Assembly (NCBI GenBank): GCA_014379965.1 | Contig: JACMKU010000094.1 | Coordinates: forward strand, 1-40,305 | DNA: 40,305 bases | From: Chitinophagaceae bacterium | GTDB taxonomy: Bacteria; Bacteroidota; Bacteroidia; Chitinophagales; Chitinophagaceae | Direction of reading: 5' to 3' | Shown here: in pieces, positions 669 to 29,477 of the stretch | Layout of the letters: the number at the start of each line of letters is the position of its first letter | How positions within the stretch are numbered: position 1 is the first letter of the stretch | Notes under the pieces: model-generated | Seen by the model: the letters and a program-made list of their open reading frames with translations, nothing else | Database searches by the model: none | What the model was told of the DNA's origin: nothing | Program-made: the position numbers and the translations under genes

Positions 669-1820
669 ATGCACTCTTCTTCCCCAGCCAGGATTGGCAT
701 TCTCGGCGGCGGCCAATTAGGTCGCATGTTGTTACAGGCGGCCGCCAATTACCCTGTAGAAACATTCGTAATGGAAAACGACGAAACCTGTCCTGCCGCG
801 CACCTCTGTCATCATTTCACAAAAGGAGATATCCGCAACTTCGATGATGTATATCGGTTTGGCAAAGGTCTGCATGCACTCACGATTGAAATCGAAAATG
901 TGAACGTAGATGCGTTGGCAAAGCTGGAAGAAGAAGGAGTAAAGATCTTCCCCATGCCATCGGTATTGAAGACTATCAAGAACAAAATTCTTCAAAAACA
1001 ATATTACAAGTCTCACGACATACCGACCGCTGCTTTCACCATTACGGAAGCGATCGGGGATGTAGAAAGACAGAAGGACTTTCTACCGGCAGTTCATAAG
1101 TCCGCCGAAGGTGGTTATGATGGGAAGGGTGTAGTAATGTTGCGGACGGCTGACGATATCGGAAAAGGATTTGATGGCCCTGCCGTGCTTGAGAAACTCG
1201 TCCTCGTGCATAAAGAGATCGCACAAATGGTGGTGATAAACGAAAAGGGCGACACTGCACTCTACCCTCCTGTAGAGATGGTGTTTAATCCTCATCTCAA
1301 CCTCCTCGACTACCAGGTGTGTCCTGCAGACCTTGAGAAGCGAGTCCTTTGGAGGGTTGAAGCGATTGCGCTCGCAGTCGTCCGAAACTTCAAGTCACCT
1401 GGTGTATTTGCCGTTGAAATGCTAATCGATAAGAGCGGCGATGTTTTTGTCAATGAAACGGCACCACGGGTGCATAATAGCGGGCATCACACGATCGAGG
1501 CCCACTACAGTTCTCAATTTGATATGCTGTGGAGAGTAATGCTCGGATTTCCTCTTGGCAATCCTTCCTTCGTACTTCCTTCGATCATGGTTAACCTGAT
1601 AGGTGCCGAAGGACATAGTGGAGATGTTCAGTACGATGGACTAGACGAAGTCTTGAAAATTGAGAATGCATTTGTTCATCTCTATGGGAAAAAACAAACC
1701 AAGCCAGGCAGGAAGATGGGTCACGTGACGATCATCAGCAGGGAAAAGCAGGATCTGACGTATAAGGCGAATTTGATAAAGAATACCTTGAAGGTAGTGA
1801 GCGGGGAAAATAGTGAATAG
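669..1820 (+). CDS. purK: N5-carboxyaminoimidazole ribonucleotide synthase PurK
   Basis: This 383-residue ATP-grasp enzyme makes N5-CAIR from AIR, bicarbonate and ATP in de novo purine synthesis. The N-terminus has the signature GILGGGQLGRM (residues about 10-20). The middle has the glycine-rich AEGGYDGKG loop, and the C-terminal half has FAVEMLIDKSGDVFVNETAPR followed by VHNSGHHTIEA, the metal/ATP-site motifs of PurK. Length is normal for the family. ATG at 669 is the only start that keeps the Rossmann-like N-terminus, and a -7 box ends five bases before it. The partner purE lies 5.9 kb downstream on the same strand, with an opposite-strand efflux operon between. The last codons and the stop (1818-1820) lie inside a 7-bp tandem array. 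Confidence 0.96.
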   Translation: MHSSSPARIGILGGGQLGRMLLQAAANYPVETFVMENDETCPAAHLCHHFTKGDIRNFDDVYRFGKGLHALTIEIENVNVDALAKLEEEGVKIFPMPSVLKTIKNKILQKQYYKSHDIPTAAFTITEAIGDVERQKDFLPAVHKSAEGGYDGKGVVMLRTADDIGKGFDGPAVLEKLVLVHKEIAQMVVINEKGDTALYPPVEMVFNPHLNLLDYQVCPADLEKRVLWRVEAIALAVVRNFKSPGVFAVEMLIDKSGDVFVNETAPRVHNSGHHTIEAHYSSQFDMLWRVMLGFPLGNPSFVLPSIMVNLIGAEGHSGDVQYDGLDEVLKIENAFVHLYGKKQTKPGRKMGHVTIISREKQDLTYKANLIKNTLKVVSGENSE

Positions 1821-1921
1821 TGAATGGTGAATAGTCAATGCCCTCCGAATATTGTTGATCAAAAACAAAATGAATCTTCTGAAATCATTCTCCACTCACT
1901 ACTCACCATTCACTATTCACT
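1812..1921. repeat. Heptamer arrays forming a 19-bp inverted repeat between purK and the TolC-like gene
   Basis: From 1813 the sequence reads as heptamers GTGAATA, GTGAATG, GTGAATA, GTCAATG. From about 1894 the other strand's version appears (CACTCAC, TACTCAC, CATTCAC, TATTCAC). Bases 1812-1830 are the exact reverse complement of 1903-1921, with a 72-base spacer. The left arm contains the purK stop codon and the right arm ends ten bases from the stop of the convergent TolC-like gene. It could act as a bidirectional terminator or mRNA 3'-end stabiliser, although no T-tract follows the stem. Confidence 0.85.
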
Positions 1922-1930
1922 ACTGGCCAT

Positions 1931-3223
1931 TCACCGCAACTGATTGATCAACCTATACAATTCAATTTCGGCCGATTTGGTGGCAAAACTTAGGTTAGTG
2001 AGTGTGAATGAGGCATTCTCGAAGCTTTGCTGTGCCTGCCTTACTTCGACAATTGTTGCCTGTCTCAGTTCAAATCTCAACAAGACAAGATCCAATAGTT
2101 TTTGAGCGAGGATGACATTCTCCTGTTGGGTCGCCAACTGTTGGAGTGTAGATGAGTAGGAAAGATAAGTTCGAACGGCGCCGGCGGTAAAGTTTCGAAT
2201 GAGTATGTCCTTCTGTATTGTAGCATTACGCACATTGATCTCTGCCACCTTTTTCTGCCTCTTGAAGATCGATCCATTGTAAATGGGAATGCCGAGGCTA
2301 ATGCCCGCCACGGGTCCAGAACTCTGATTAAATAATACGTTGCCGGCCGAAGTTTGGTTACGATTGAAGTTGTAACCAGCATTTGCCCTTATACTCGGAT
2401 ATCGTTGGGCACCCACTTCCTTCACGATAAATTCATTTATCCTTACCTGGTCCTCTGCTGCCATCACCTCGGCATTCTTACCAATGTCGCTGAGAATAGT
2501 ACCGAGTGTAATGCTTCGATCTACAATAATAGTGTCACTGATTACAATTAGCGAGTCTGGACGCAGGTTAAGAAGCAGGAGAAGGTCGGTATGCGCCTGG
2601 TCTACAATCAGGAGTTGCGACTGTCTTGTCTGCAGCAGTGCGTTAAGGTCGAGTTGTGATTGAAACAGGTCGGCATTATTAGCCATCCCTACATTCTGCT
2701 GCGCCTTGACGATATCCAGTTGTTTCTGCGCTACACCAATGGACTGGTCGATGGTCTTTATGTAGGTTTGCTGACGGATCACATCATAATAGCCTGTCAT
2801 TACTCCGGCCATCAGGTTCTGTACCTGGGCATTCAGAAACTGCTCGCTCTGAGTCTCCAGTTGGTCGAGTCGATTTTTGGTTGCGATGACGCGCGACCCA
2901 TTATATAATAAGATGCTTCCAGTAACGTTTGCCGATAAATTATTCCCCACAGCAGCCTTGCGTTGTATCACTGTGCCCGTATTCAATTTCTGATTCACAC
3001 TCGTCACCTGCTCATTGTCCACGACGTTGGCTGTCACCACCGGTAAGCCACCGGCGACGCCAATATGATTGTTGATCTTTGCAATTTCCAGGTTGTTTTG
3101 CTGCAACTGGAGATCCAGGCTATTCTTCAATGCGATGTTGATAGCCTCCTGCAGGGTCAGCCGTTGTGAAGAAGCGCTAATGCCAGTAGCCAGCATTATT
3201 AATATGATGAAATAGCGTTTCAT
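1931..3223 (-). CDS. TolC-like outer-membrane efflux channel
   Basis: This 430-residue protein is the outer-membrane channel of an RND efflux system. It begins with a Sec signal peptide (MKRYFIILIMLATGISASSQ) that lacks a lipobox cysteine. After it comes the typical TolC-family opening LTLQEAINIALKNSLDLQL. Two similar halves of long amphipathic helices follow, with Gln/Asn/Leu-rich repeats, and the chain ends in EIELYRLINQL, a normal TolC-family terminus. Its start codon overlaps the stop of the RND pump by four bases (ATGA, 3220-3223), so the two are translationally coupled. It is the last gene of the adaptor-pump-channel operon. The substrate cannot be read from sequence. Confidence 0.93.
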   Translation of the reverse strand: MKRYFIILIMLATGISASSQRLTLQEAINIALKNSLDLQLQQNNLEIAKINNHIGVAGGLPVVTANVVDNEQVTSVNQKLNTGTVIQRKAAVGNNLSANVTGSILLYNGSRVIATKNRLDQLETQSEQFLNAQVQNLMAGVMTGYYDVIRQQTYIKTIDQSIGVAQKQLDIVKAQQNVGMANNADLFQSQLDLNALLQTRQSQLLIVDQAHTDLLLLLNLRPDSLIVISDTIIVDRSITLGTILSDIGKNAEVMAAEDQVRINEFIVKEVGAQRYPSIRANAGYNFNRNQTSAGNVLFNQSSGPVAGISLGIPIYNGSIFKRQKKVAEINVRNATIQKDILIRNFTAGAVRTYLSYSSTLQQLATQQENVILAQKLLDLVLLRFELRQATIVEVRQAQQSFENASFTLTNLSFATKSAEIELYRLINQLR

Positions 3224-12671: not shown

Positions 12672-12692
12672 GTTTAAGCAACTATGTTTAGA

Positions 12693-12809
12693 AGTTTAAG
12701 AGTTTAATGGTTTAATAGTTTAAAGGTTCAACAAACAGACTGGTCAACGAAGCACTAACACTTCAACTTTAAATAACATTTAAACCCTTAAACTATTAAA
12801 CTTTCAAAC
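12693..12809. repeat. Octamer arrays in inverted orientation between the Gfo/Idh gene and the DAO gene
   Basis: Five exact-period octamers run from 12693: AGTTTAAG, AGTTTAAT, GGTTTAAT, AGTTTAAA, GGTTCAAC. An opposite-strand array from 12762 to 12809 uses TTCAACTT, ATTTAAAC, CCTTAAAC, TATTAAAC, TTTCAAAC. The 14 bases 12710-12723 are the exact reverse complement of 12788-12801, and the wider arms match at about 25 of 30 positions. The right array stops five bases from the Gfo/Idh stop codon. Confidence 0.85.
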
Positions 12810-12814
12810 TGTCA

Positions 12815-14146
12815 TCATATCCTCGGCAACTTATACCCATTATGATACTTCGCCGCAAGATATTTTGCATTGATGGCCTCATCGGTAAACCGGCCCGTCG
12901 CCTTATTCCAGGTAAGCTTCTTCCCGGAACGAAAAGCGATATTTCCCATCTGGCTTAAGATCGCTATGTGCGAGGCTGAATCGATAGGACACCTTAACTC
13001 CTCCATCTTCCGCGACTTTATAACGTTGACGAAGTTCTGCATATGCAGATCAAGGCCATTGTCGACACGTGGCTTCCGCTCCACCATAACCTTATTCGCA
13101 CTCCTTCCCTCTTCGATTACCTCCCAGCCTCCACGATCAAGTTGTAGCGTACCATTATCGCCTATAAATGCAATTCCATGTTCTTTCTTGAATAATCCAT
13201 TTTCAATTCCAAGTGCATGATCCCATACAAGATTGAATTTTTCGAACTCGTAAAGCGAACAGAGCGTATCGGGTGTCTCCTGTGGCGATGTCGGATCTGC
13301 GAAATTGCCGCCGACTGCACTGATGGTCTTTGGCACGGTGGCATTCATGCCGAGCAATGCATAATCGAGCAAGTGAACGCCCCAATCGGTCATGAGTCCA
13401 CCGGCGTAATCCCAGAACCAACGGAATGTGAAGTGGAACCTGTTTGCGTTGAATGGTCTCTTAAGAGCCGGTCCTAGCCAACGGTCATAATCTACACCGG
13501 CAGGTACAGGAGTATTTGGTACGACTGGAATCGGTTTCTTCCAACCGAGATAGCACCAGACTTTTACGGTCCTGATATTGCCTAGTTTTCCCGTGCCAAT
13601 AAAATCTACGGCATCCCTGAAATGTTGCTGGCTTCTTTGCCACTGACCTGCCTGCACCACCCGGCCATATTTCTTCTGTGCGGCTATCATGATCCGGCAT
13701 TCTTCGATCGAATTCCCTACCGGTTTCTCCACATACACATCCTTGCCTGCATTACAAGCATCTACCATCTGCAAGCAATGCCAGTGATCCGGTGTTCCAA
13801 TGATCACGGCATCCACATCCTTCATATCGAGCAGTTGTCGATGGTCCCCGAAGATTTTAATTTTCGACGTATCGATTTTCATTGTTTGCAACTCCCCCAT
13901 CCTCTTAGCGATAACGTTCTTATCTACATCGCAGAGCGCTACGAGATTAACCCCGGGAATTTTGAGGATAGATGTTAGGTTTGACCAACCCATGCCATTG
14001 ATACCAATCACACCAACGTTCAATTGATCCGAAGGCGCAATTCTATTCTTGAAAATGGCAAAGACATCATTTCCAAGCGAAGAGGCCAGAACTGTCCCGG
14101 CTGTAAGTGCCGAGGCCTGGTACAAGAATTTTTTTCTAGATGACAT
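12815..14146 (-). CDS. Exported Gfo/Idh/MocA-family oxidoreductase
   Basis: The 443-residue NAD(P)-dependent sugar-type oxidoreductase starts SSRKKFLYQASALTAGT, a Tat-like signal with R-K in place of twin arginines. The Rossmann motif is VGVIGINGMGWSNL. The family motifs GTPDHWHCLQMVDA and VYVEKPVGNSI follow, with the catalytic lysine in EKP. The C-terminal half has the FRWFWDYAGGLMTDWGVHLLD segment of exported Bacteroidota members. The frame continues upstream to 14257, but those 37 codons lack homology and bypass the signal, so ATG at 14146 is chosen. The substrate is unknown. It lies inside the hydroxyproline cluster without an obvious step in that pathway. Confidence 0.92.
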   Translation of the reverse strand: MSSRKKFLYQASALTAGTVLASSLGNDVFAIFKNRIAPSDQLNVGVIGINGMGWSNLTSILKIPGVNLVALCDVDKNVIAKRMGELQTMKIDTSKIKIFGDHRQLLDMKDVDAVIIGTPDHWHCLQMVDACNAGKDVYVEKPVGNSIEECRIMIAAQKKYGRVVQAGQWQRSQQHFRDAVDFIGTGKLGNIRTVKVWCYLGWKKPIPVVPNTPVPAGVDYDRWLGPALKRPFNANRFHFTFRWFWDYAGGLMTDWGVHLLDYALLGMNATVPKTISAVGGNFADPTSPQETPDTLCSLYEFEKFNLVWDHALGIENGLFKKEHGIAFIGDNGTLQLDRGGWEVIEEGRSANKVMVERKPRVDNGLDLHMQNFVNVIKSRKMEELRCPIDSASHIAILSQMGNIAFRSGKKLTWNKATGRFTDEAINAKYLAAKYHNGYKLPRI

Positions 14147-14253
14147 AGCAATTTTTTTAAAAATTATTTTGATCTCACAACTCCACTCCCGCCTTTGCCA
14201 GGTTACAGCAGGCGCAGCCCGATTACCGATTCCCATGCCTACTCTGGGAACAA

Positions 14254-15412: not shown

Positions 15413-16696
15413 ATGGAAGCCTACGGAAAAATATTACTCATAGCCATGCCGGCATTCCTTCTACTCGTGCTATTTGAAAAATGGTACGGATGGAGAAAGG
15501 GGAAGGATACAGTGCGAACAATGGATATGATCAGCAGCCTTACCAGCGGCGTGACAAATGTGACGAAGGATGTTGTTGGAATTTATCTCCTCGTCCTTGC
15601 CTATCCATTCTTTTTGAGGAATCTGGCGATTACGGAGATTTCCTCCACCATAGCCGTCTATATTATCGCTTTCGTCGCCCTTGATTTCGCTGGCTATTGG
15701 GTACACCGCCTTCAACATGTCACCAACTTCTTTTGGAATGGACACATCGTGCATCATAGCAGCGAGGATTTCAATCTTGCATGTGCGCTTCGACAGAGCA
15801 TTTCGGCGATCGTGAAGACATTTGCCATCTTCCTATTTCCGGCAGCCATCCTTGGCGTACCTGAACAAGTGATCGCTGTGGTCGCACCTTTGCACCTCTT
15901 CGCGCAATTCTGGTATCATACGCAGCATATCGGCCGGATGGGGTTCCTGGAAACAATAATCGTAACTCCTTCCCATCACCGGGTTCACCATGCAATCAAT
16001 CCAGAATATATCGATAAGAACTACGGACAGATTTTTATCTTCTGGGACAAATTGTTTGGCACTTTCCAGGAGGAAAAACCAGATGTGCCTCCGGTCTATG
16101 GCATTACCAGGCCTGTACGTACCTGGAACCCTATACGGATTAACTTTCAGCATGCATGGTTAATGATCAAGGATGCGTGGCGCACCCGCAACTGGAAAGA
16201 TAAATTCCTGCTTTGGTTTAAACCTACTGGCTATCGTCCCGCTGATGTTGCGGAAAAGTATCCCGTCTATAAAATTGAAAATGTGTATCAATTTGAGAAG
16301 TACGATACTCGAAGTTCTACGGCTATGGCGACCTGGTGCTGGATACAGGTTGTGCTGGTATTGTTGTTTGTGAGTTACCTGTTTGGAAATATCGCATTGA
16401 TCAACCAGCTTGATCCCACCTATATTTTATGGTATGGGGCTTTCATTTTCGTTACCATCTATGCCCTGACAGATCTGATGGATCGTAATCCATATGCGAT
16501 TGTATGGGAAATATTGCGATGCAGCATTGGACTCGGCTTCCTGATTCGCCAGGAAGATTGGTTTGGAGCGAGTACTTATCTGGCCGAAGCGAAATATCTT
16601 ATCGGAGCCTATTTTGTTCTTTCAGTAATGATATCCGGCTGGTTCGTCTACCAAAATCGTAGGGAGGATGTTGGTCTGGTGCCTCGTGTGGGGTGA
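15413..16696 (+). CDS. Membrane fatty-acid hydroxylase / sterol desaturase family protein
   Basis: The 427-residue integral membrane di-iron protein has several hydrophobic segments, among them residues about 5-22, 58-80 and 84-100. It carries the histidine boxes of the family: HRLQH, then HIVHHSSEDFNL, and HHRVHHAINP before the DKLFGTF motif. These boxes bind two irons and support oxygen-dependent hydroxylation or desaturation of a lipid. The C-terminal third adds more membrane segments after KFLLWFKPTGYRP, an extended form found in many Bacteroidota. The substrate is unknown. A near-consensus box (TTAATTTG, 15388-15395) lies upstream. The stop codon lies next to a 9-bp tandem array. Confidence 0.9.
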   Translation: MEAYGKILLIAMPAFLLLVLFEKWYGWRKGKDTVRTMDMISSLTSGVTNVTKDVVGIYLLVLAYPFFLRNLAITEISSTIAVYIIAFVALDFAGYWVHRLQHVTNFFWNGHIVHHSSEDFNLACALRQSISAIVKTFAIFLFPAAILGVPEQVIAVVAPLHLFAQFWYHTQHIGRMGFLETIIVTPSHHRVHHAINPEYIDKNYGQIFIFWDKLFGTFQEEKPDVPPVYGITRPVRTWNPIRINFQHAWLMIKDAWRTRNWKDKFLLWFKPTGYRPADVAEKYPVYKIENVYQFEKYDTRSSTAMATWCWIQVVLVLLFVSYLFGNIALINQLDPTYILWYGAFIFVTIYALTDLMDRNPYAIVWEILRCSIGLGFLIRQEDWFGASTYLAEAKYLIGAYFVLSVMISGWFVYQNRREDVGLVPRVG

Positions 16697-16748
16697 TTGG
16701 GTTGATTGAGTTGATTTGGTTGATTAAGTTGATTAGGTTGATTTGGCA
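16695..16748. repeat. Nonamer tandem array at the hydroxylase stop codon
   Basis: Six consecutive 9-bp units run without a gap: GATTGGGTT, GATTGAGTT, GATTTGGTT, GATTAAGTT, GATTAGGTT, GATTTGGCA. The array overlaps the last two bases of the upstream gene's stop codon (TGA, 16694-16696). No complementary array was found close by, unlike most other loci of this kind in the window. Confidence 0.88.
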
Positions 16749-16870
16749 CGCACAGCGCTCTACCCGAAGTCAATCAGCGTTCGGAGCGTATTGCACTTTG
16801 ACAATTGTTCCTTTCCATTCTCAAAAAAAGGGTTAGACTTCGAGGCTCCCCACAATTTAGTGAAGCCATT

Positions 16871-16926
16871 CACTACTCACTACTCACCACTCACCACTCA
16901 CTACTCACCACTGACCACTCACTTCA
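16871..16926. repeat. Heptamer tandem array at the DUF885 stop codon
   Basis: Eight 7-bp units run in phase: CACTACT, CACTACT, CACCACT, CACCACT, CACTACT, CACCACT, GACCACT, CACTTCA. The words are the same family as the right arm of the array between purK and the TolC-like gene 15 kb away. The array overlaps the stop codon of the DUF885 peptidase (16919-16921, minus strand). With the nonamer array it fills most of the 222-bp gap between two convergent genes. Confidence 0.86.
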
Positions 16927-18658
16927 GTTTCTCCTCAATAAATCGCTCCACCATCTCCTCCAATATCTTCAACGTAACACTTCCTTGAGAAAGGACGAGA
17001 TCATGAAAATCGCGGATGTCGAATTTATCTTTCAATTTCGATTCAGCTCTCTGCCTAAACTCGCGAATTTTCAGTTCGCCAATCTTATATGCCAACGCCT
17101 GGCCCGGCCAGGAGATGTACCGATTTATTTCAGTATTTACTTCGTGCAACGATAGGGCAGTGTTTTCGGCCAGGTACGTGACTGCCTGCTCGCGAGTCCA
17201 ACCCTTTGTGTGTAGTGCCACGTCGAGTACCAGGCGGCAGGCTCGCCACATCTCATATGTCAGCTTTCCGAAATGCGAATAAGGGTCTTTGTAAAATCCC
17301 ATTTCCGTACCCAGGAATTCGCAGTACAGTCCCCATCCTTCACCGAACGCATTTACATATAGATTACGCCGGAAGTTGGGCAACTCCGTCATTTCCTTTG
17401 TGAGCGCAATTTGCAGGTGATGACCAGGCACTGCCTCATGAAGTGTTAACGATTCAAGTGCATAAAGTGGTCGGCTTTTTAAATCATAAGTATTAACCCA
17501 ATAACTACCGGAACGCTTGCTACTCAAACCAGCTCCTGAATACCTTCCGGCAGTATATGTGGGTGCCAAATGCGCCGGCACAGGTTCAACACCATACGGT
17601 TGCCTGGGCAGTCTGCCGAAGAAGCGCGGCAGCATGCCATCAGCCTTCTTGGCGATAAACGATGCCTCTTTCAATAATTGAACGGATGTTGTTGCATAGA
17701 ACTTTGGATTCGTACGCAAAGAAGAAATGAACTGCTTAAGTGTTCCTTTGAATTTAACCTCTTTGAGTATTCCCATCATCGCATCCTTTATTCGGGCTAC
17801 CTCTGACAGGCCTATAGCATATACCTCCTCATAGTTCATATTCGTGGAAGTGTAATGCTGAACACGGTCCTGGTAATAAGCGAGGCCATTCGGAAAATGC
17901 GAAACGCCAATAGTAGTCCTCGCCATGGGTAGGTATTCGTTATCGAAGAATGTCTTGATTTGCCTGAACCCCACAACTGCACTATTACGAATAGCCGTCC
18001 TGGCATCGGCCGTCAACTTTGTCCAATCCTCCACCGATAATGAGAAAGGTTTTTGCAGGAATGGTTTCCAGAATACCGACCTCTCAACGTCGTCGACAAT
18101 GTGCTGGTTGTATGTATTCTCATATCCATTGAGTATGGCCCTGGGCTGTGATACGCCTCTCCGCAATCCTTCACGCATATTAGCCAGATGCTGGCCCACA
18201 TATCTAGGGATATCATTGAGACGCTCGATATAATTCTCGAATTCTTTCTTCGTAGATAGCACCTGTGATCCCATCGCTGCCAGGGAAGTATGAAATCCTT
18301 CATCAGACAAGATCGGATTGAGATAAGCTTGAAAATTAAAAGCTGACCTCTCATCCTCGACATCATACTTGATAAGCTCGAGATTAATAAGGTCTGCAAT
18401 AGGAAGCTCGGCGGTATTTAGTTTATTCAGTTCAGTATAGATGGAGTCATAAAAATCAAACCTTCTTTTTGCATCGGCTTCGGTAACCGAACCGAGAGGC
18501 TGTCGCAAAGTGCTATCGCGATTACCCTCCCGTATCTGGAAGTGCGAAATACTCTTCATAATCTTCTCGACCGAAGACTCGGGCTTGGAAGGCTGTTGGG
18601 CGTCGAGCGATACGCAAGCGAAAACAATAAATAAGAAGGAGAACAGGCTGTTTCTCAT
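16919..18658 (-). CDS. Secreted DUF885-family metallopeptidase-like protein
   Basis: The 579-residue protein starts MRNSLFSFLFIVFACVSLDAQ, a Sec signal peptide. The body is mostly helical with the DUF885 signature LTLHEAVPGHHLQIAL near residue 410, an HExxxGHH-type zinc site. LYVNAFGEGWGLYCEFLGTE follows and supplies the downstream acidic ligand. Length is normal for the family, whose members are related to M32/M3-type peptidases and are often annotated as dipeptidases. It should act in the periplasm or outside. Its position within the hydroxyproline cluster suggests it may release collagen-type peptides, which is inference only. Confidence 0.88.
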   Translation of the reverse strand: MRNSLFSFLFIVFACVSLDAQQPSKPESSVEKIMKSISHFQIREGNRDSTLRQPLGSVTEADAKRRFDFYDSIYTELNKLNTAELPIADLINLELIKYDVEDERSAFNFQAYLNPILSDEGFHTSLAAMGSQVLSTKKEFENYIERLNDIPRYVGQHLANMREGLRRGVSQPRAILNGYENTYNQHIVDDVERSVFWKPFLQKPFSLSVEDWTKLTADARTAIRNSAVVGFRQIKTFFDNEYLPMARTTIGVSHFPNGLAYYQDRVQHYTSTNMNYEEVYAIGLSEVARIKDAMMGILKEVKFKGTLKQFISSLRTNPKFYATTSVQLLKEASFIAKKADGMLPRFFGRLPRQPYGVEPVPAHLAPTYTAGRYSGAGLSSKRSGSYWVNTYDLKSRPLYALESLTLHEAVPGHHLQIALTKEMTELPNFRRNLYVNAFGEGWGLYCEFLGTEMGFYKDPYSHFGKLTYEMWRACRLVLDVALHTKGWTREQAVTYLAENTALSLHEVNTEINRYISWPGQALAYKIGELKIREFRQRAESKLKDKFDIRDFHDLVLSQGSVTLKILEEMVERFIEEKLK

Positions 18659-18730
18659 AAAAGCAATTTTCGGGGAAGTTCGTAGAAGTGAAAATAAGTA
18701 AACCAGAGATTACAATCAAGGTTCAATATA

Positions 18731-18820
18731 TCTATGTGAAACCCTATGTACCTATGTGCCTATCCCGTTAACATACGGAATAGCCACATAGTTACATAGG
18801 TACATAGGGTTTCACATAGA
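18731..18820. repeat. 27-bp perfect inverted repeat built of 8-bp words
   Basis: Bases 18731-18757 are the exact reverse complement of 18794-18820. Both arms are made of octamers (CCTATGTA, CCTATGTG; ACATAGTT, ACATAGGT, ACATAGGG). The 36-base spacer pairs further with a few mismatches, so nearly the whole 90 bases could form one long hairpin. The right arm ends exactly where the aldehyde dehydrogenase stop codon begins (18821). There is no T-tract, so it is not a classic intrinsic terminator. Confidence 0.9.
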
Positions 18821-20308
18821 TTACTTTATAGGGTCCTTACTTAGCTTGTCATTTACTGTCCTCCAGATGCCGAGTGTATTCTCATTCTTCAACTCCTGCG
18901 GCAATTGGTCGTTCGACCAGTTTTGATAGGCAACGGGTCGTGCAAATCGTTTGATGCCGTCTGCGCCAACAGAAGTAAACCTCGAATCGGTAGTAGCCGG
19001 ATAAGGCCCTCCATGATGCATGCTCTGGCAAACTTCCACTCCGGTTGGAACACTATTGAGTATGAACCTCCCGCAAATACTCCGGATTGCATCTACTAAT
19101 TCCTCGTGATAACTAATATCCGCCTCCGTAGCCATCAATGTCGCAGTTAGTTGACCTTCGATGTGGTTCGCAATCTGCGTCATTTCAGTCAAGTCTTTGC
19201 ATCGAACTACTAATGAATACGGTCCGAATACTTCCATGTGAAGTACAGGATTATTCAGGAAAGCCTCCCCCGATACCGTAGCTATTGTCGGTGCTCCCTG
19301 GTTTAACTGGAGGTCTCCTTCAGCTACGGCCACTGTCGTGACTTCCTCCTGCGACAAAGCATTTGCACGCCTCTCGACGTAATTTTTGAATATGCCCATA
19401 TGCAACATGTTGCCCGGCGATGTCTGCCTGATCTCCTCTCCGAGTGCAGCGACGAAGGTGTCCAATCCCTCGCTTTCTATTCCGAGCAAGAGGCCCGGAT
19501 TTGTACAGAATTGTCCAACCCCGAGCGTGATAGAAGATGCATACAGCCTGGCAATCTCATCGGCCGACTGTTTCAATTTTTCCGGCAATAAAAACACAGG
19601 ATTGATGCTGCTCATCTCTGCGAATACGGGAATGGGTTCCTTTCTCTGGCTCGCCCAGTCGAATAGCTGCCTTCCACCGGCCAGGGAACCAGTAAAACCG
19701 ACGGCCTTGACGAGCGGATGTTTTACCAACGCCTCGCCCACCTCCGTTCCCGCACCATACACATGAGCGAAGATGCCATCAGGCATATTTGTATCCTTCG
19801 CCGCCTTCAACACTGCCGAGGCAACAAGCTCAGAAGTCTGTGCGTGAGCAGGATGTGCCTTAACAATCACCGAACAGCCCGCGGCAAACGCACACGCAGT
19901 ATCTCCACCCGCAGTCGAATATGCAAAAGGAAAATTGCTCGCACCAAAAACCGCAACGGGTCCGATCGGAACAAGCATTTTACGGATGTCCTGGCGTGGT
20001 GGATTGCGTTCCGGAAGTCCCGTATCAATTTTAATTTCCAACCAGTCACCCCTCTCACATGCTTCCGCATAGGAGATCAACTGGAAAATCGTGCGCCCTC
20101 TTTCATTTCTCAACCTCGGTTCTGTCAAATTAGTTTCCTCTGCGGCCGTCTGCAACAAGATGTCTCCCAACGCTTCTATTTCACGCGCGATCGCACGCAT
20201 GAACTCTGCCCGTTTCTTCAACGGCATCTTGCCATAGGCACGGAAAGCTTTTACCGAATCCAGTAACAGGATTTCAATCTCTTCAGTTGTATGATCTGTG
20301 TAAGTCAT
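18821..20308 (-). CDS. 2,5-dioxovalerate (alpha-ketoglutarate semialdehyde) dehydrogenase
   Basis: The 495-residue NAD(P)-dependent aldehyde dehydrogenase has the cofactor-binding segment GPVAVFGASNFPFAYSTAGG, then VIVKAHPAHAQTSE. Its VGFTGSLAGGR loop, catalytic glutamate in PVFAEMSSINPVF and catalytic cysteine in GVGQFCTNPGLL follow. GASNFPFAYSTAGGDTACA is characteristic of the alpha-ketoglutarate semialdehyde dehydrogenase branch. It would oxidise 2,5-dioxovalerate to 2-oxoglutarate, the final step of hydroxyproline breakdown; the same branch also ends pentose and glucarate pathways. It lies 131 bp downstream of the DapA-family deaminase, on the same strand, and the two likely form an operon. 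A long hairpin sits directly at its stop codon. Confidence 0.93.
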   Translation of the reverse strand: MTYTDHTTEEIEILLLDSVKAFRAYGKMPLKKRAEFMRAIAREIEALGDILLQTAAEETNLTEPRLRNERGRTIFQLISYAEACERGDWLEIKIDTGLPERNPPRQDIRKMLVPIGPVAVFGASNFPFAYSTAGGDTACAFAAGCSVIVKAHPAHAQTSELVASAVLKAAKDTNMPDGIFAHVYGAGTEVGEALVKHPLVKAVGFTGSLAGGRQLFDWASQRKEPIPVFAEMSSINPVFLLPEKLKQSADEIARLYASSITLGVGQFCTNPGLLLGIESEGLDTFVAALGEEIRQTSPGNMLHMGIFKNYVERRANALSQEEVTTVAVAEGDLQLNQGAPTIATVSGEAFLNNPVLHMEVFGPYSLVVRCKDLTEMTQIANHIEGQLTATLMATEADISYHEELVDAIRSICGRFILNSVPTGVEVCQSMHHGGPYPATTDSRFTSVGADGIKRFARPVAYQNWSNDQLPQELKNENTLGIWRTVNDKLSKDPIK

Positions 20309-21615: not shown

Positions 21616-21891
21616 CCAGTATTGTGCAATAATTAGAGCGAAGTAATTTTATGGCATAACACAACTAAAATCAATCCATATCACACAAAGTTTTAATACC
21701 GTGACATATTTTCTGTTTCTAACGGAACACTATTTGCAATCTACTAATCGGTTTTTCATAGGATATTGGATTTTTTTAAAACGGGGATGATTTCTATCAA
21801 CCCCTCTTTTTTTTTACCCCTACGAGACCATTCTCTCCTCGGCACCGCCAGCGATTTCTCTCAAACACTTTCGATTTATTGTATATTTATT

Positions 21892-21899
21892 CAGCCGCG
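21892..21899 (+). promoter_or_regulatory. Near-consensus -7 box (TATATTTA) of the outer-membrane receptor gene
   Basis: TATATTTA differs from TAnnTTTG at the last base. It would start transcription about 20 bases before ATG 21925 and after all upstream in-frame Met codons, supporting that start. A T-rich -33 region is present, but no clean TTTG. Confidence 0.4.
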
Positions 21900-21924
21900 C
21901 CCACACACTTGCTCAATTCATTTT

Positions 21925-24363
21925 ATGCCACTAATTGCTACTTTAATTCGCCTAGGTTTCGCGTGCTATCTATTTTTTTTGGCAACCAGCTTCTCGCTGT
22001 CTGCCCAATCGTCTATAAGAGGAACAGTCACGAGTAAGGATAATACACCAGTTGCAGCTGCAAATGTCTTGCTGCTGAAATCAAGTGATTCCACCCTCGT
22101 GAAAGGAACGATAACAAATACTGCTGGAAAGTTTTCCTTAGATGTTATACTTACCGGAGATTATACAATACAGGTGAGTTTTGCAGGCATGGAAACTATT
22201 CTCTCCCCGCTTGTGGTCAATAGGTCCGACGTAGACGCTGGAAACTTCCAATTGAAACCTGGGGGACTGCAACTGGAAAAAGTGACTGTGAGTTCCCGGC
22301 GACCATTGTTCGAACAGAAGATCGACCGTATGGTTGTGAATGTGCGTAACAGTATCACAGCAGCGGGAAGCACGGTACTGGATGTGCTTGAGAGATCTCC
22401 GGGAATAGTAGTCAACCGGCAGAATAATTCTATCGCCATGAATGGAAAAGACGGCGTCTCCGTGATGATCAATGGAAAGTTGACGCGAATGCCGATGTCC
22501 GCACTCGTACAGATGTTGTCAGGAATGAATGCAAGTAATATCGACAAGATAGAATTGATCACAACTCCACCGGCGAACTTCGATGCGGAGGGGAATGCAG
22601 GTTTCATCAACATCGTGATGATCACGAACCCTAACCAGGGATTAAACGGATCTTATACGCTCTCCTTCGGGTACGGTCGCGGCGAAATTCCCGGTGCAGG
22701 CATCAACTTCAACTACCGCAAGAATCGATTCAACCTTTATGGTGATTATTCTTTCTCCAGGCTACATACCCAACAGATCTTTAGCAATTACCGGCGTGTA
22801 CGTTACATGGGCAACGTCACTGAAAATTATGTGGAAAGCGACAGGAACACCTTTCAACGCAATCACAACCTAAATCTTGGTGCGGATTACGAACTCACCA
22901 AGAAAACAGTCGTAGGAGTTCTGGTGGCAACGTATAATAATAGATGGTCGATGGATGCGGAGAACTTATATTCCAAGCGGGTAAATAGCATGCCCGATAC
23001 TTCCACCACCATACTCAATGATGAGGTCAACCACTGGAAACATTATATGGCGGACGTAAATCTGCAGCACAAGTTCAAAGACGGGGAGAACATTTCGTTC
23101 GACGTTAATTATCTGTGGTACAATGACAATAATCCGACTGATTACACCAACCACTATTATAATGGCCAGGGAACTTTTCTCTCAACTGATTTAACAAAAA
23201 GCAGGAAAAAAACACCCATTGAAATTTGGGTAGGAACTACTGATTATAATGTTCGTTTAAGCAAGAAATGGAACCTGCAGACAGGACTGAAGTTTACTTC
23301 ATCGCGGTTCACGAACGATGTTGCCGTGGAACGATATCAACAGAATGTTTGGATGCAGGATCCCGAACTGACATCCCTATCTAATTTGAAAGAAAACATC
23401 GCTGCGGTATATAGCTCTTTCACGGGCGACATTACAGCCCGGACGAGTGTCAAACTGGGTTTAAGGTATGAGTACACCACCTCGAATCTTGGTACGCCTA
23501 TCACCCCGGATATAGTCGACCGTAAATATGGGCGGCTCTTCCCGACTATCTTTATCGGTCACAAACTTAATGATGACAATAGTTTCAATCTGACATTTTC
23601 ACGGCGCATAAACAGGCCAACGTTTAATGACATGGCGCCGTTCATAATATTCATGGATCCAAATACATTCTTCTCGGGCAATGCCGCACTGCAGCCCTCG
23701 ATAACCAATACGATGAAGGGAGATTATATCTTGAAGAATTATGTTTTCTCCCTTACCTACAGCATAGAATCGAATACGATCGCGCGCTTTCAAACCGAGG
23801 TCGACGTGTCGACAAATAAGCAGACACTTAGGGCACAAAACCTTGATGAAACGCGATTGTTAACTGCGAGCCTGGCCCTACCATTTAACTTCAATAAATG
23901 GTGGACGATGCAATTGAATGTTATAGGATCGAGACAAGAGGTGTCGGCTTTCTACAACAAGGAACCCGTAAAACTCTCGCTTGCAAACTTCAATGTATCG
24001 GGGGCACAGACATTTAAGCTTCCGAAAGACTACACGCTAGAATTATCCGGATTCTACCAATCACCGAGCCTGTTTGGAATTTCTCGTTTCCGTGGATTGG
24101 GCCGGATTGATGTTGGGGCGCAAAAGAAACTGGGAAAAAAAGGCGGCACACTCCGGTTCGCGGTGAATGATATTTTTCAGAGCATGCAACTCCAGATCTA
24201 TTCAGACATGCCTGCGCAGGATTTTTACTTCGATACCCGCATTCGCTTTGCTTATCGCACATTCAGGTTGACCTGGACATGCCCATTTGGCAACAAGGAT
24301 CTGAGAAACAAGAGATCGAGGAACACAGGTTCGGAGGAAGAGAGGCGGAGGGTGACGCAATAG
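21925..24363 (+). CDS. TonB-dependent-receptor-like outer-membrane beta-barrel protein
   Basis: The 812-residue protein starts MPLIATLIRLGFACYLFFLA with a Sec signal ending near SLSAQ. A carboxypeptidase-regulatory-like domain follows (SIRGTVTSKDNTPVAAANVL, residues about 30-110). Next is a plug-like region (VLDVLERSPGIVVNRQNN, then DKIELITTPPANFDAEGNAG), and the rest is barrel. The C-terminus FRLTWTCPFGNKDLRNK and a charged, Arg/Glu-rich tail are typical of the OMP_b-brl_3 family rather than of SusC, and no SusD partner is present. The ligand is unknown; such proteins often import peptides or siderophores, or have no proven transport role. The frame runs upstream to 21766, but that extension destroys the signal peptide. 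An octamer array begins within five bases of the stop. Confidence 0.9.
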   Translation: MPLIATLIRLGFACYLFFLATSFSLSAQSSIRGTVTSKDNTPVAAANVLLLKSSDSTLVKGTITNTAGKFSLDVILTGDYTIQVSFAGMETILSPLVVNRSDVDAGNFQLKPGGLQLEKVTVSSRRPLFEQKIDRMVVNVRNSITAAGSTVLDVLERSPGIVVNRQNNSIAMNGKDGVSVMINGKLTRMPMSALVQMLSGMNASNIDKIELITTPPANFDAEGNAGFINIVMITNPNQGLNGSYTLSFGYGRGEIPGAGINFNYRKNRFNLYGDYSFSRLHTQQIFSNYRRVRYMGNVTENYVESDRNTFQRNHNLNLGADYELTKKTVVGVLVATYNNRWSMDAENLYSKRVNSMPDTSTTILNDEVNHWKHYMADVNLQHKFKDGENISFDVNYLWYNDNNPTDYTNHYYNGQGTFLSTDLTKSRKKTPIEIWVGTTDYNVRLSKKWNLQTGLKFTSSRFTNDVAVERYQQNVWMQDPELTSLSNLKENIAAVYSSFTGDITARTSVKLGLRYEYTTSNLGTPITPDIVDRKYGRLFPTIFIGHKLNDDNSFNLTFSRRINRPTFNDMAPFIIFMDPNTFFSGNAALQPSITNTMKGDYILKNYVFSLTYSIESNTIARFQTEVDVSTNKQTLRAQNLDETRLLTASLALPFNFNKWWTMQLNVIGSRQEVSAFYNKEPVKLSLANFNVSGAQTFKLPKDYTLELSGFYQSPSLFGISRFRGLGRIDVGAQKKLGKKGGTLRFAVNDIFQSMQLQIYSDMPAQDFYFDTRIRFAYRTFRLTWTCPFGNKDLRNKRSRNTGSEEERRRVTQ

Positions 24364-24367
24364 TTTC

Positions 24368-24487
24368 GTTGCCTGGTTGACTGGTTGCGGGGTGCCTGGT
24401 TGCTTAGTTGCTTGGTTCCGCCAGACATAAGAGCAGGTAAGGTAGAAGGATCGAAGCAACGAAGAAACCAAGAAACTAGCGAACTAA
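24368..24487. repeat. Octamer arrays between the receptor gene and the MmcQ/YjbR gene
   Basis: Directly after the receptor stop come GTTGCCTG, GTTGACTG, GTTGCGGG, a 7-base GTGCCTG, GTTGCTTA, GTTGCTTG. From 24456 the complementary type appears as GCAACGAA, GAAACCAA, GAAACTAG, CGAACTAA. The two arrays could pair imperfectly (about 16 of 21 positions in the best register). The same vocabulary recurs in inverted orientation on the other side of the MmcQ/YjbR gene at 24894-24925. Confidence 0.82.
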
Positions 24488-24502
24488 CTTAGCAGAAACA
24501 CT

Positions 24503-24826: not shown

Positions 24827-24893
24827 CGAGAAGGCTTATTATTGCATCGACCAATAACCTTAGCGACAATTGTCCAGACATCCTCGGGTTTAG

Positions 24894-24925: not shown

Positions 24926-24938
24926 ACACCTCGCGAGG

Positions 24939-27095: not shown

Positions 27096-27131
27096 TGTTG
27101 AAGATTGGGTTAAGAAATAATTGCTCCGTCC

Positions 27132-27431
27132 TTAACCTAAGCGTGGAGGCTGCCAAAATGAAGAATAGTACACTGCGAGCCCGTTTACCTTACGACTCTC
27201 TATATAAGTAGGTTGGAAGGCTACGGCCCGGTCGACCTGCATAACCCTAGGAACCAGCACTGCACCGGGGCAACCGGAACAGGTGAAGAAAGGCGAACAG
27301 CCAGCTTCACAATCGTCACCGTTTTCCTCATGAGAACCGATTGATTCACTGGCACAACTCTCCTCTATGCAACATGGCGTAGAAGCCGAGGCAAGGATTA
27401 TGGCGAGTAGGAAGGATACCAGGAACCGCAT
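27132..27431 (-). CDS. Small secreted Cys-rich protein (DUF6660-like), first gene of the receptor operon
   Basis: The 99-residue product starts MRFLVSFLLAIILASAS with a Sec signal. It is then rich in Cys, His and acidic residues, including STPCCIEESCASES and GDDCEAGCSPFFTCSGCPG. The CSPFxxCxxC pattern recalls DUF6660, small Bacteroidota proteins often beside metal-related TonB receptors; this recall is unverified. Metal binding in the periplasm is inferred from the cysteines. The frame extends to 27560, but that extension is only translated heptamer repeat and lies beyond the promoter box at 27435-27442. The TonB receptor follows after 36 bp. Confidence 0.72.
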   Translation of the reverse strand: MRFLVSFLLAIILASASTPCCIEESCASESIGSHEENGDDCEAGCSPFFTCSGCPGAVLVPRVMQVDRAVAFQPTYIESRKVNGLAVYYSSFWQPPRLG

Positions 27432-27434
27432 GCG

Positions 27435-27442
27435 CAAAAATA
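27435..27442 (-). promoter_or_regulatory. -7 promoter box (TATTTTTG) of the Cys-rich protein/receptor operon
   Basis: The minus strand reads TATTTTTG, a perfect TAnnTTTG box. Only three bases separate it from the ATG at 27431. Transcription would start on or next to the start codon, so the mRNA may be leaderless. The same geometry is seen at purK. Confidence 0.5.
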
Positions 27443-27492
27443 TGCGTTTACCGTGTCTGTCCGAAATGAAATTGAGGCCGGAGACTTTAGGC

Positions 27493-27555
27493 GGGAGACG
27501 GGAGACGGGAGACAAGAGGCGGGAGACGGGAGACGGGAGACGGGAGACAGAAGAC
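27493..27555. repeat. Heptamer array GGGAGAC, nine units
   Basis: Nine units run in phase: GGGAGAC three times, AAGAGGC, GGGAGAC four times, AGAAGAC. Bases 27490-27504 are the exact reverse complement of 27691-27705 in the second array of this gap. The array lies about 50 bases upstream of the operon promoter box, the only array here at a gene's 5' side rather than a stop codon. Confidence 0.88.
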
Positions 27556-27652
27556 TGCAATACAAAGTAGCAGCATCGATATGTAGTTCCCCATGATTTT
27601 TCAAGCGGCCTTTAAGTAGCCCATTTACTGCTTGTCTATTGACTGCCGCCAT

Positions 27653-27771
27653 TGCCTATTGCCTATTGCTTATTTGTTATTGACTATTGCCTCCCGTCTC
27701 CCGCCTATTATCTCCCGTCTCCCACCTATTGTCTCCTGCCTCTCGCCTATTGCCACCAGCCTCCTACCGCC
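27653..27771. repeat. Heptamer array TGCCTAT/CGTCTCC, seventeen units
   Basis: Seventeen gap-free 7-bp units run from 27653: TGCCTAT twice, TGCTTAT, TTGTTAT, TGACTAT, TGCCTCC, CGTCTCC, CGCCTAT, TATCTCC, CGTCTCC, CACCTAT, TGTCTCC and five more. Two word types, one ending CTAT and one ending CTCC, are interleaved. The CTCC units complement the GGGAGAC array 150 bp to the left. This array fills much of the 428-bp gap before the T9SS cargo gene at 27860. Confidence 0.88.
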
Positions 27772-27859
27772 ACTCATCTATAAATTTCCCGGCCTCCATA
27801 AATAATTTTTTTTAGTCAACGAAAACTGTCGTACATTAATATTATAAAACCAAAATAGC

Positions 27860-29278
27860 ATGAAAAGAAAAACTCTACTCTTATTGGTAATGACATCCTT
27901 CATTATCTCCACCCACGCACAGAAAAAAGAAAAGCAACCTACCACGGGTTACGCTATTACTGCACTTGAGAAAGGCGGCAGGAGTTGGAAAGAAGTTAAA
28001 CTGGTCGATGTCACTACCGGTGAGGAAGTGAGATCTATCTACCAGAGTGCAACCGAAATAGAAGCACTTAATGCGAGGACCAAGAAGCCCGTACTTAAGA
28101 AAGACGGAAACGCTTCGACTACTACGATCACTACAACAACTCCAACCGTAGAAGTGAGGCAAAAAAAAGTAGTTAACCTCGACGATGCGCTGAACCAGGC
28201 ACAGGGAACTACACGCCAGGTGGTAAGCAGAGTGATCGTGATGAAGTCAAAGCCGCAAGTAGACAAGCCCTTTTCGACAAACTCAGCTGCAATGGCGTAT
28301 GACAAGAAACATGAACGTCTTTATTACACCCCGATGGGAATAAATCAACTGAGGTATATTGATCTTAAATCGAATAAGATATACTATTTCGAAGACGAGA
28401 CTTTCGGCCAGGTCAAAAGCAGTGGTGATGCACCAAACCAGATTACAAGAATGGTAATTGCCTCCGATGGTGATGGCTATGCTCTTAGCAACGACGCAAA
28501 ACATCTCATCAAGTTTACGACAGGAAAGAAGCCAGTCATTACTGATCTCGGCGCCCTGATCGATGATACAAAAAATGGCAACTTCTCTGTACACCATGGT
28601 GGAGGCTTCGGTGGTGACATGATTGCCGATGCAAATGAGAATCTCTACCTCATCACTGCCAATCGCAATGTCTACAAGATCTCTATTGAAACACGCGTAG
28701 CGACTCACCAGGGAGTCATCAAAGGATTACCACGTGGCTTCAGCACGAATGGCGCAATGGTAGAAGAAGGAAGCAAAGTGATTGTTGCCAGTTCCGAGTC
28801 TACAGCGGGATATTTCAGGTTTGACCTCGTAACACTTCAGGCTGAAAGGGTTTCAAAAGAAGGCGCTGTATATAATGCGTCCGACCTCGCCAACGGAAAT
28901 CTTGCTTTTGAAAAGAAGAAGAAGGAGAAGAAACAGGAAAATCCTGTTGTCACCGAAGAGGCTAAGAAACCCGTTGTTGATGAAACCGCTCGTAACCAAC
29001 GTCCAGAAGTTGCATACGACAATAATATATCCGTGTACCCCAATCCTGTGACTGCAGGAACCGTTAAAGTTTCATTCACCGATCTTCCTGTTGGAAGATA
29101 CCAGGTTCAATTGCTCGATCTTTCCGGTCGACTGGTTAGTTCTCAGGAGGTAAATGTGAATGCCAAGCTCCAGGTAAATGATTTCAATCTGCCGGATGTT
29201 GCAAAAGGTAGTTACCTTCTCAAGGTCTCCAGCGAGTTGAATAAAGTCTCTGTCACCAATAAATTGGTGGTACAGTAA
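27860..29278 (+). CDS. Secreted T9SS cargo protein with propeller-like body
   Basis: The 472-residue protein starts MKRKTLLLLVMTSFIISTHA, a Sec signal ending near THAQ. The middle has repeated strand-loop segments (RLYYTPMGINQLRYIDLKSN, ITRMVIASDGDGYALSND, NGAMVEEGSKVIVASSES) that suggest a beta-propeller. A Lys/Glu-rich linker (about 350-385) follows. The last ~80 residues form a type A sorting domain of type IX secretion: NISVYPNPVTAGTVKVSF, then YQVQLLDLSGRLVSSQ, and KGSYLLKVSS near the end. It is therefore exported and attached to the cell surface or released. The biological role is unknown. A strong terminator follows. Confidence 0.9.
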   Translation: MKRKTLLLLVMTSFIISTHAQKKEKQPTTGYAITALEKGGRSWKEVKLVDVTTGEEVRSIYQSATEIEALNARTKKPVLKKDGNASTTTITTTTPTVEVRQKKVVNLDDALNQAQGTTRQVVSRVIVMKSKPQVDKPFSTNSAAMAYDKKHERLYYTPMGINQLRYIDLKSNKIYYFEDETFGQVKSSGDAPNQITRMVIASDGDGYALSNDAKHLIKFTTGKKPVITDLGALIDDTKNGNFSVHHGGGFGGDMIADANENLYLITANRNVYKISIETRVATHQGVIKGLPRGFSTNGAMVEEGSKVIVASSESTAGYFRFDLVTLQAERVSKEGAVYNASDLANGNLAFEKKKKEKKQENPVVTEEAKKPVVDETARNQRPEVAYDNNISVYPNPVTAGTVKVSFTDLPVGRYQVQLLDLSGRLVSSQEVNVNAKLQVNDFNLPDVAKGSYLLKVSSELNKVSVTNKLVVQ

Positions 29279-29300
29279 AATAGATGTCCAGAATGTCAAG

Positions 29301-29329
29301 AAAGGTCTCCTGGTGGAGACCTTTTTTTT
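29301..29329 (+). terminator. Rho-independent terminator after the T9SS cargo gene
   Basis: AAAGGTCTCC pairs with GGAGACCTTT across a TGGT loop, followed by an eight-T run starting at 29322. It lies 22 bases after the stop codon. It is a classic intrinsic terminator, so the neighbouring heptamer hairpin is not needed for termination here. Confidence 0.92.
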
Positions 29330-29344
29330 GCGACGTCATTGAAA

Positions 29345-29477
29345 AATGTAGAATGTAAAATCTAGAATGTAAAATGTAAAAGGGGCTCACTCCAATCTTC
29401 GAAGGTCATTGGAACCGCCCCCTACCAGAAGGTTCACCTTTTACATTTTACATTCTAGATTTTACATTTTACATTCA
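29345..29477. repeat. 32-bp perfect inverted repeat built of heptamers
   Basis: From 29345 the heptamers are AATGTAG, AATGTAA, AATCTAG, AATGTAA, AATGTAA. Bases 29352-29383 are the exact reverse complement of 29437-29468, and pairing continues beyond one mismatch. The 53-base loop contains a smaller pairing (CCAAT with ATTGG). The whole element lies between a strong terminator and the acetyltransferase gene starting at 29494. It is the longest perfect inverted repeat seen in the window. Confidence 0.92.

Follow-up and report, generated by a model that had tools for sequence, protein, structure and literature searches.

Why should the intergenic DNA of one bacterium carry tandem arrays of short words that hold a strict period of 7, 8, or 9 base pairs (bp) while the word itself changes from gap to gap? 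The question is raised by a stretch of 40,305 bp (the window) from a Chitinophagaceae bacterium, contig C149 in a draft genome of 4.73 Mb and 221 contigs. A preliminary description, made from the letters of this stretch, had presented the arrays as a family of private words belonging to an apparently undescribed class. We tentatively favor, at slightly less than even confidence, a reading in which most arrays are arms of long inverted repeats placed just behind stop codons, absent from the corresponding places in sister species, that likely spread by copying and took over from native intrinsic terminators.

Window repeats were located with Tandem Repeats Finder and an inverted-repeat search, and all positions are window coordinates unless a locus is named (Table 1). 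Tandem Repeats Finder and direct reading of the sequence recovered the previously listed words and periods in their places. The arrays at 1894, 12780, 18786, 27691, and 29439 are largely the reverse complement of the array preceding each of them and are therefore hairpin arms. These inverted repeats have arms of up to 76 bases separated by 19 to 165 bases, and five of six clusters folded as single strands beat all of their dinucleotide shuffles (z from -3.9 to -12.5). An autocorrelation check of the kind that had been proposed for the periods, applied to the window, came out unevenly: its intergenic DNA exceeded dinucleotide shuffles by 5.1 standard deviations at lags 7, 14, and 21, but lags 8 (1.7) and 9 (1.9) were weak when taken alone. 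No excess of lag-7 self-matches was seen in the coding DNA of the window.

The same design pervades the genome. A sample of 717,306 bases in 41 pieces including the window (later 746 kb), searched for arms of at least 18 bases with 80% complementarity and a loop of up to 320 bases, yielded 152 inverted repeats, 129 of them with periodic arms, compared with a single and nonperiodic one in a third-order Markov control of the same pieces; extrapolation predicts about 850 hairpins per genome. Arm periodicity was at lag 7 in 75 hairpins, 8 in 31, 9 in 16, 6 in 4, and 12 in 3. The 717 kb also held 326 intergenic arrays (45 per 100 kb), with 83 more in open reading frames (ORFs), while the Markov control gave 14 arrays in total in 303 kb. 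The period was 7, 8, 9, or a multiple in 279 of the 326 (7 alone in 108, 14 in another 47, and 21 in another 22), and 223 of 318 arrays had a complementary stretch within 300 bp. The periodic arrays are thus real, but most of them are arms of inverted pairs forming hairpins, which the preliminary description missed. Long one-sided arrays of about 10 to 21 units also occur (L157 14743-14886, L146 3512-3622, and L027 444-579); they start at stop codons and have no complementary partner within 300 bp.

Neither are the words private. Regular expressions placed 117 of the 129 hairpins in 15 shared families, leaving 12 unassigned and four families with a single member, and the genome contains 92 matches to the stretch 27470-27770, a number that counts the stretch itself and its own inverted copies. 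What did hold, between arrays as well as between genera, is that period and phase are kept while the word changes. Each family has one orientation in all 117 assigned hairpins; such uniformity within a family follows from common descent, and independent evidence therefore lies across families. There, the 5' arm is G-rich in 13 of 15 families (the exceptions being TCTGTT and GCAAAGAC). Counted over all hairpins, G outnumbers C in the 5' arm of 112, C outnumbers G in 10, and the two are equal in 7; these arms are C-poor, with 10.8% C and 29.7% G.

Inverted pairing goes together with a fixed order of the two forms. We define as inward the form of a word that is found in 5' arms. In gaps holding both forms, on either strand, the 5'-arm form came first in 70 and the reverse order in none; 61 of the ordered gaps combine arrays of one family and 9 combine two different families as two-word brackets, and 95 more gaps carry arrays with no such pair. 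Unpaired arrays mostly obey the same side rule, on the left side of the gap (29 versus 5) and on the right (22 versus 5).

Arrays also sit close to stop codons, as the preliminary description had proposed to check. Genes were simple longest-ORF calls, and some divergent and in-ORF hairpins (6 of the latter) may be miscalls. With this annotation, 43% of 270 arrays with a stop-side neighbor lie within 10 bp of the stop, versus 12% for random placement in the same gap. Hairpin edges have a median distance of 10 bp from stop codons and 42 bp from start codons, and 66% of stop-side distances are at most 20 bp, versus 43% when positions within the gap are randomized.

Period, order, and place recur across genera while words change. 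A genome of another genus (G009) has 8 periodic hairpins in 200 kb built from the words AATTTGATG, GTGTAAAT, and AAGTAATA, with more G than C in the 5' arm in 7, the opposite in none, and a median distance of 9 bp from stops. Three periodic hairpins were found in 60 kb of G328 and none in 40 kb of G365. Among 80 named loci, a period of 7, 8, 9, or a multiple was seen in 89 of 112 intergenic arrays. Of the 89 with a stop-side neighbor, 36 lie within 10 bp of the stop; such closeness is infrequent in G003 to G005 (7 of 46), and G006 and G009 have 9 of 21 and 17 of 56. That the whole pattern is an artefact of metagenome assembly, as the 221 contigs of the draft could suggest, has a negligible probability, since the same design occurs in the isolates Terrimonas ginsenosidimutans and Sediminibacterium goheungense, and arrays are found in the 80 named loci and in Xanthomonas (PMC4692102).

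Comparison with sister species, i.e., members of the same genus matched by synteny and with gene DNA matches of roughly 63 to 82%, suggests that the elements are specific to this lineage. For 30 hairpin sites (22 codirectional, 6 convergent, and 2 divergent), the orthologous gap could be compared in one or more of five sisters, once sister gaps longer than 700 bp are dropped. Under the strict rule, a periodic hairpin was absent in all 63 comparisons at these 30 sites. A looser run (arms of at least 15 bases and a lower score) gave a hairpin of sister G003 at two of the sites, and stricter scoring drops both: a nonperiodic one at L028 8006-8196, and, in gap 1820-1931, one of the GTTTAAGA family in place of GTGAATA here, a possible word swap. 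Sisters have 0 to 5 periodic hairpins and 3 to 14 intergenic arrays per 100 kb, versus 18 and 45 here. Absence from all compared sisters most simply indicates gain in this genome, although loss in the sisters may have produced the same pattern.

The gaps themselves are longer here. At hairpin sites the own gap is longer by a median of 76.5 bp (quartiles 43 and 101), versus -1 at 73 array-free sites. The median hairpin span is 119 bp, which puts the loss from the old gap at about 47 bp (Wilcoxon P = 1e-4). That hairpin and loop are new DNA replacing these roughly terminator-sized 47 bp is supported but not proved. Loops resemble the sister gap poorly (mean z of 0.3 at 25 sites) compared with matching stretches of array-free gaps (2.4 at 14 sites; P = 0.015); controls and flanks were taken from codirectional gaps, loops from convergent gaps as well. 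Outside the hairpins, start-side flanks do resemble the sister gap (3.2 at 15 sites), like control flanks (3.0 at 14 sites). Loops are unlike the sister gap while start-side flanks and array-free stretches are alike, so the loop is probably new DNA; the alternative is that loops simply change at a higher rate.

Terminator-like sites are fewer where arrays sit. In the sample, they were detected in 16 of 139 gaps with arrays or hairpins; array-free gaps had such a site in 28 of 125 cases (P = 0.02), and gaps of the sisters in 82 of 317 (P = 0.0005). At 26 hairpin sites, the own genome has 3 and the sisters, by majority, 10, with 7 sites at which they are sister-only and none at which they are own-only (P = 0.016); a threshold of -10 kcal/mol gave 9 and none (P = 0.004). 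The corresponding ratio at 30 array-free sites was 2 to 1. In one scan, the word arm itself made up two of the four terminators that the own genome had at hairpin sites.

How could such elements stand in for terminators? Transcribed from either side, an element would yield RNA that folds into a long hairpin lacking a U-tract. The hairpin could fix the mRNA 3' end by blocking 3' exonucleases, by pausing the polymerase, or by working with Rho through its C-rich, G-poor distal arm. Being alike in both reading directions, one element would be enough for the two genes of a convergent pair. The 3' arm has 30% C and 11% G, and pyrimidine-C (YC) steps number 1.56 per 10 nucleotides (nt), versus 0.51 in the 5' arm; GTTAAAC and TTTACAT units hold none. 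Action as Rho sites is retained as no more than one possibility. By analogy with repetitive extragenic palindromic (REP) elements, we think a role of the hairpins at RNA 3' ends, alone or with Rho, most likely. Tandem stop codons in all frames were considered as a purpose and discarded on inspection, because several words contain no stop.

Several observations weigh against replacement of terminators by copied hairpins. With the first sister only, sister-only and own-only terminators stood at 7 to 1 in 22 sites (P = 0.07). Sister terminators are not significantly more common at hairpin sites (9 of 22) than at array-free sites (7 of 27; P = 0.36), and another scan gave terminators in 10 of 73 hairpin gaps and 29 of 155 gaps without hairpins. 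No U-tract follows the hairpins, T amounting to 27% of the next 12 nt and at least six T occurring in 12% of 125 flanks. Arm mismatches show no G-U excess over A-C (36 to 49), hence no sign of selection for RNA pairing. Twenty-two of 125 placed hairpins lie between divergent ORFs in our crude calls. In the window, a stem with a T run that resembles a terminator (29304-29329) is kept between the end of one gene at 29278 and the hairpin behind it, a counterexample to strict replacement. The space outside hairpins is not clearly shortened within the genome, with 17 bp in convergent gaps versus 25 in array-free ones and 70 versus 47 in codirectional gaps. Loops differ from start-side flanks at P = 0.08 only, stop-side flanks reach a mean z of 1.6 (6 sites), and an initial small run that joined the two flanks gave 0.5. 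A loop matches a loop of its own family in only 18 of 95 cases (E of 0.01, some via residual array), which is odd for whole-element copying. Gap growth, finally, also matches the total length of the arms (+3 bp; P = 0.30), and the regression was unstable, so that length alone cannot separate replacement from arms added around an old loop. We rejected the latter arrangement, in which the loop is old intergenic DNA, because, although consistent with gap length, it does not suit the similarities of loops and flanks.

How the elements spread can be approached from the GTTTAAC family. One 166-bp element (L145 17740-17905) has about 23 other near full-length matches in the genome at 69 to 80% identity, and its arm-only matches reach 83 to 100%, mostly above 90%. 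The preliminary description had invoked a process that makes or maintains the period, not the sequence, which may operate; arms of such high similarity, found at many sites, suggest that particular words are copied too. On inspection, inner ends look conserved in this family. They contribute to an enrichment of TCGA in loops, 61 of 121 of which contain it, compared with 18 of 121 matched background pieces. Among 296 genomes of the phylum, a draw that held no other member of the genus, the GTTTAAC word was found in this genome alone, 104 plus 99 times; one G003 hairpin has a similar word. GTGAATA, in turn, is present in 62 of 298 genomes of the order, very unevenly, e.g., at 109/104 copies in G328 and 0/0 in G435 of the same genus. 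In G548 the reversed GTGAATA control pattern occurs 101 and 115 times and the real pattern not at all, perhaps because of another word family.

These distributions also suit selfish, nonautonomous mobile hairpins moved by a transposase and tolerated behind stops, akin to miniature inverted-repeat transposable elements (MITEs) or REP doublets forming hairpins (REPINs). They would have no function at 3' ends, and the loss of terminators would be collateral damage. We judge this possible, leaning toward unlikely. It accommodates the dispersal of families whose arms are similar, the occurrence of hairpins here but not in sisters, and the fact that one word reaches high copy numbers in some genomes of the order and not in others. 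No target-site duplication was found (longest shared flank word of 2.95 versus 2.90 bases in shuffled pairs, with at least six bases in 2.3% versus 0.7%), as for elements moved as single strands. The expected mover, in contrast, did not appear. The three Y1 transposase loci of the genome have no word hairpin in their flanks (about 1.5 kb or to the contig end), so that spread by REP-associated tyrosine transposases (RAYTs) was set aside. Across the order, Y1 transposases occur in 52 of 62 GTGAATA-bearing and 171 of 236 other genomes (hand tally; P = 0.07), an association too weak to name a mover. Moreover, loops are mostly unrelated within a family, and the obedience of two-word brackets and many single arrays to the same order and side rule is not predicted by one two-ended element. 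Two Y1 loci (L140 1089-1217 and L141 2020-2209) have their own nonperiodic palindromes adjoining, as expected for RAYT genes; the third has none. As for a reverse transcriptase, there was one partial match, with an internal stop.

Growth in place is improbable in our estimate. Here, replication slippage would extend a word and quasipalindrome template switching would copy the arm, so that a hairpin arises from a small stem-loop such as an old terminator. Arms do match their own partner better (93%) than family mates (83%, best offset), the former figure being helped by the 80% identity rule of detection, and the own partner is the best match in 56 of 113 cases. Terminators are gone where hairpins are, and there are long one-sided arrays. 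This scheme, however, does not explain the same words at many sites and in several genera, and the fixed order of different words is not what it predicts.

We regard as very unlikely that the arrays act as DNA, i.e., as G-rich quadruplexes, i-motifs, or tandem binding sites for a protein, with pairing secondary. The C-poor 5' arms are compatible with it, as are the formation of quadruplexes by GGGAATC repeats in vitro and, in one Xanthomonas transcriptome, transcript starts and stops that are more common at quadruplex-capable repeats than at incapable ones (PMC4692102). But the GGGAATC family accounts for only 8 of 129 hairpins, most families (GTTTAAC, GTGAATA, AATGTAA, GTTGATTGG, and others) have no G-tracts, and the words are too different for one binding protein. 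The Xanthomonas result compares repeats with repeats and is therefore no test of the 3'-end role that we prefer for the hairpins.

Table 1. Arrays, hairpins, and a terminator-like stem of the window (z values, single-strand folding against dinucleotide shuffles)
Feature	Position	Strand	Method or structure	Gene context
GTGAATA array	1809-1839		Tandem Repeats Finder	
CACTACT-type arrays	1894-1924 and 16866-16922		Tandem Repeats Finder	
AGTTTAAT array	12693-12723		Tandem Repeats Finder	
GATTNGGTT array	16689-16743		Tandem Repeats Finder	
CCTATGTA array	18743-18763		Tandem Repeats Finder	
GTTGCCTG array	24368-24417		Tandem Repeats Finder	
GGGAGAC array	27492-27548		Tandem Repeats Finder	
TATTGCC/TCTCCCG mixed array	27651-27764		Tandem Repeats Finder	
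AATGTAA array	29343-29381		Tandem Repeats Finder	
Hairpin, GTGAATA family, period 7	1809..1924	.	arms ~1811-1840 and 1893-1922; fold z -5.3	fills convergent gap between ORFs 669-1820 (+) and 1931-3223 (-)
Hairpin, GTTTAAGA family, period 8	12686..12810	.	arms 12701-12731 and 12780-12810; fold z -3.9	adjoins stop of ORF 12815-14257 (-)
Array GTTGATTRG, period 9, 5'-arm form	16689..16743	+		overlaps stop of ORF 15413-16696 (+)
GTGAATA-family array, period 7, 3'-arm form	16866..16923	-		overlaps stop of ORF 16919-18658 (-)
Hairpin, CTATGTA type, period 8	18730..18821	.	fold z -10.6	between codirectional ORFs
GTTGCCTG array, period 8	24368..24476	.	weakly complementary stretch 24452-24476	starts 4 bp past stop of ORF 21766-24363 (+)
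Large imperfect hairpin	27474..27764	.	GGGAGAC arm ~27474-27553; fold z -10.4	between divergent ORFs (own ORF calls)
Terminator-like stem and T run	29304..29329	+	read from sequence	between stop codon and hairpin at 29343
Hairpin, AATGTAA family, period 7	29343..29476	.	arms 29345-29383 and 29437-29475, 97% complementary; fold z -12.5	downstream of ORF 27860-29278 (+)

Individual elements of the window illustrate the range of forms (Table 1). The GTTGATTRG array on the left and the GTGAATA-family array on the right form a two-word bracket facing across one convergent gap of 222 bp, which measures 13, 19, 29, and 183 bp in four sisters. The gap with the GTTTAAGA hairpin has 143 bp, versus 75 and 77 in two hairpin-free sisters. 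The ORFs on either side of the CTATGTA hairpin, whose arm (z of 2.2) falls below the periodicity cutoff used for counting, overlap by 4 bp in sisters G001 and G003 (own ORF calls). The right side of the large imperfect hairpin mixes TATTGCC and TCTCCCG units in a 7-bp period. A fold of 24360-24490, around the GTTGCCTG array, was no better than shuffles (z of -0.8, with 41 of 200 shuffles as good), and this array is perhaps a decayed or half bracket.

The neighborhood is otherwise unremarkable. The ten window proteins scanned all fall into metabolic, efflux, or unknown families of an ordinary kind, one of them carries a Por secretion tail, and the close relatives of one window protein are mostly from Chitinophagaceae. 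A tRNA gene at 31507-31579 is the sole Rfam match of the window at gathering thresholds, with no other known RNA family among its hits. Elsewhere in the genome, a nonperiodic inverted repeat (GACCGCAGATTATCATGATTATTATGATCAA and alike) recurs at L018 15269-15374 and L160 8863-8944 and looks like an ordinary MITE- or REP-like element, and L018 7060-7272 holds a nonperiodic, CCCGGG-rich inverted repeat of 46 bases with a 121-base loop between convergent ORFs.

The short tandemly repeated repetitive (STRR) sequences of cyanobacteria are short tandem heptamers with a few fixed words, and we know of no description of them as inverted arms at stop codons. They share intergenic tandem heptamers with the arrays described here, which differ in having 15 families instead of a few fixed words. 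Three heptanucleotides are reported for Calothrix and GGGGA(C/T)T heptads for Nostoc (PMC4692102). The closest published relatives, however, are the GGGAATC heptads of two Xanthomonas species, with 186 and 183 arrays, convergent inverted pairs numbering 70 and 75, and a strong bias for positions beside or over stop codons with the G-form pointing inward (Rehm et al. 2015, PMC4692102). A near relative of the arrays, a class that seemed undescribed in the preliminary description, is thus in print; what is added here is their many-word form in one genome. Shared features are period 7, heterogeneous units, intergenic location, convergent inverted pairs with the G-form inward, and closeness to stop codons, and GGGAATC is itself one family here. 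Unlike Xanthomonas, with one word family per genome studied, this genome has 15 families, periods of 6 to 9, and, per 100 kb of sample, 45 intergenic arrays. Two-word brackets, the order rule, gain relative to sisters, and a likely loss of native terminators likewise go beyond what the accessible text of that account covers, in which a regulatory role could not be identified and detailed literature is said to be lacking (PMC4692102).

Other repeats resemble parts of the design. TAACTGA direct repeats form heptad arrays with a similarly patchy spread, in Beggiatoaceae, cyanobacteria, and some Bacteroidetes, by a mechanism given as not known; they use one fixed word, in direct orientation and, for the main genome, usually placed shortly before start codons, instead of inverted arms at stops (PMC4679880). 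REP elements, bacterial interspersed mosaic elements (BIMEs), and REPINs occur in hundreds of intergenic copies as inverted pairs that form hairpins with a variable spacer (PMC3116915, PMC12306157, PMC2817692), some REP elements lie within 15 nt of stop codons (PMC3116915, PMC12306157), and REPs are said to stabilize RNA 3' ends without mediating termination (PMC13289151). The elements reported here, like REPINs, have two inverted conserved ends, a variable spacer, and many copies. A REP is a palindrome of its own sequence; the arms listed here are C-poor tandem words, and no link to RAYTs was found. With MITEs, one of which carries a minisatellite in Porphyromonas (PMC4596501), they share terminal inverted repeats and the lack of genes but not target-site duplications, nor, mostly, a shared core within a family. 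They differ from intrinsic terminators by stems with no following U-tract. In the open-licence literature, we recognized no account of multiword inverted arrays in Bacteroidota or of terminator replacement by them, and six word strings were not found there.

A bolder extension, which we consider unlikely but worth stating, is that Bacteroidota have a fast-turning alternative system for 3' ends. A word-indifferent process would write inverted arrays of any 6- to 9-bp word, in fixed order, at gap edges, and the resulting hairpins would displace intrinsic terminators, so that in related species the ends of one and the same gene would be formed by unlike devices, each built from its own words.

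A terminator is commonly regarded as a fixed component of its gene. If takeover by copied hairpins is true, a single lineage has, after its separation from the sister species of its genus, exchanged many gene ends for devices built of repeats, and other genera use other words. This would be a natural experiment on whether 3' ends need structure or sequence. It would also give heptad repeats a testable setting and warn that repeats that are usually masked may belong to transcription units.

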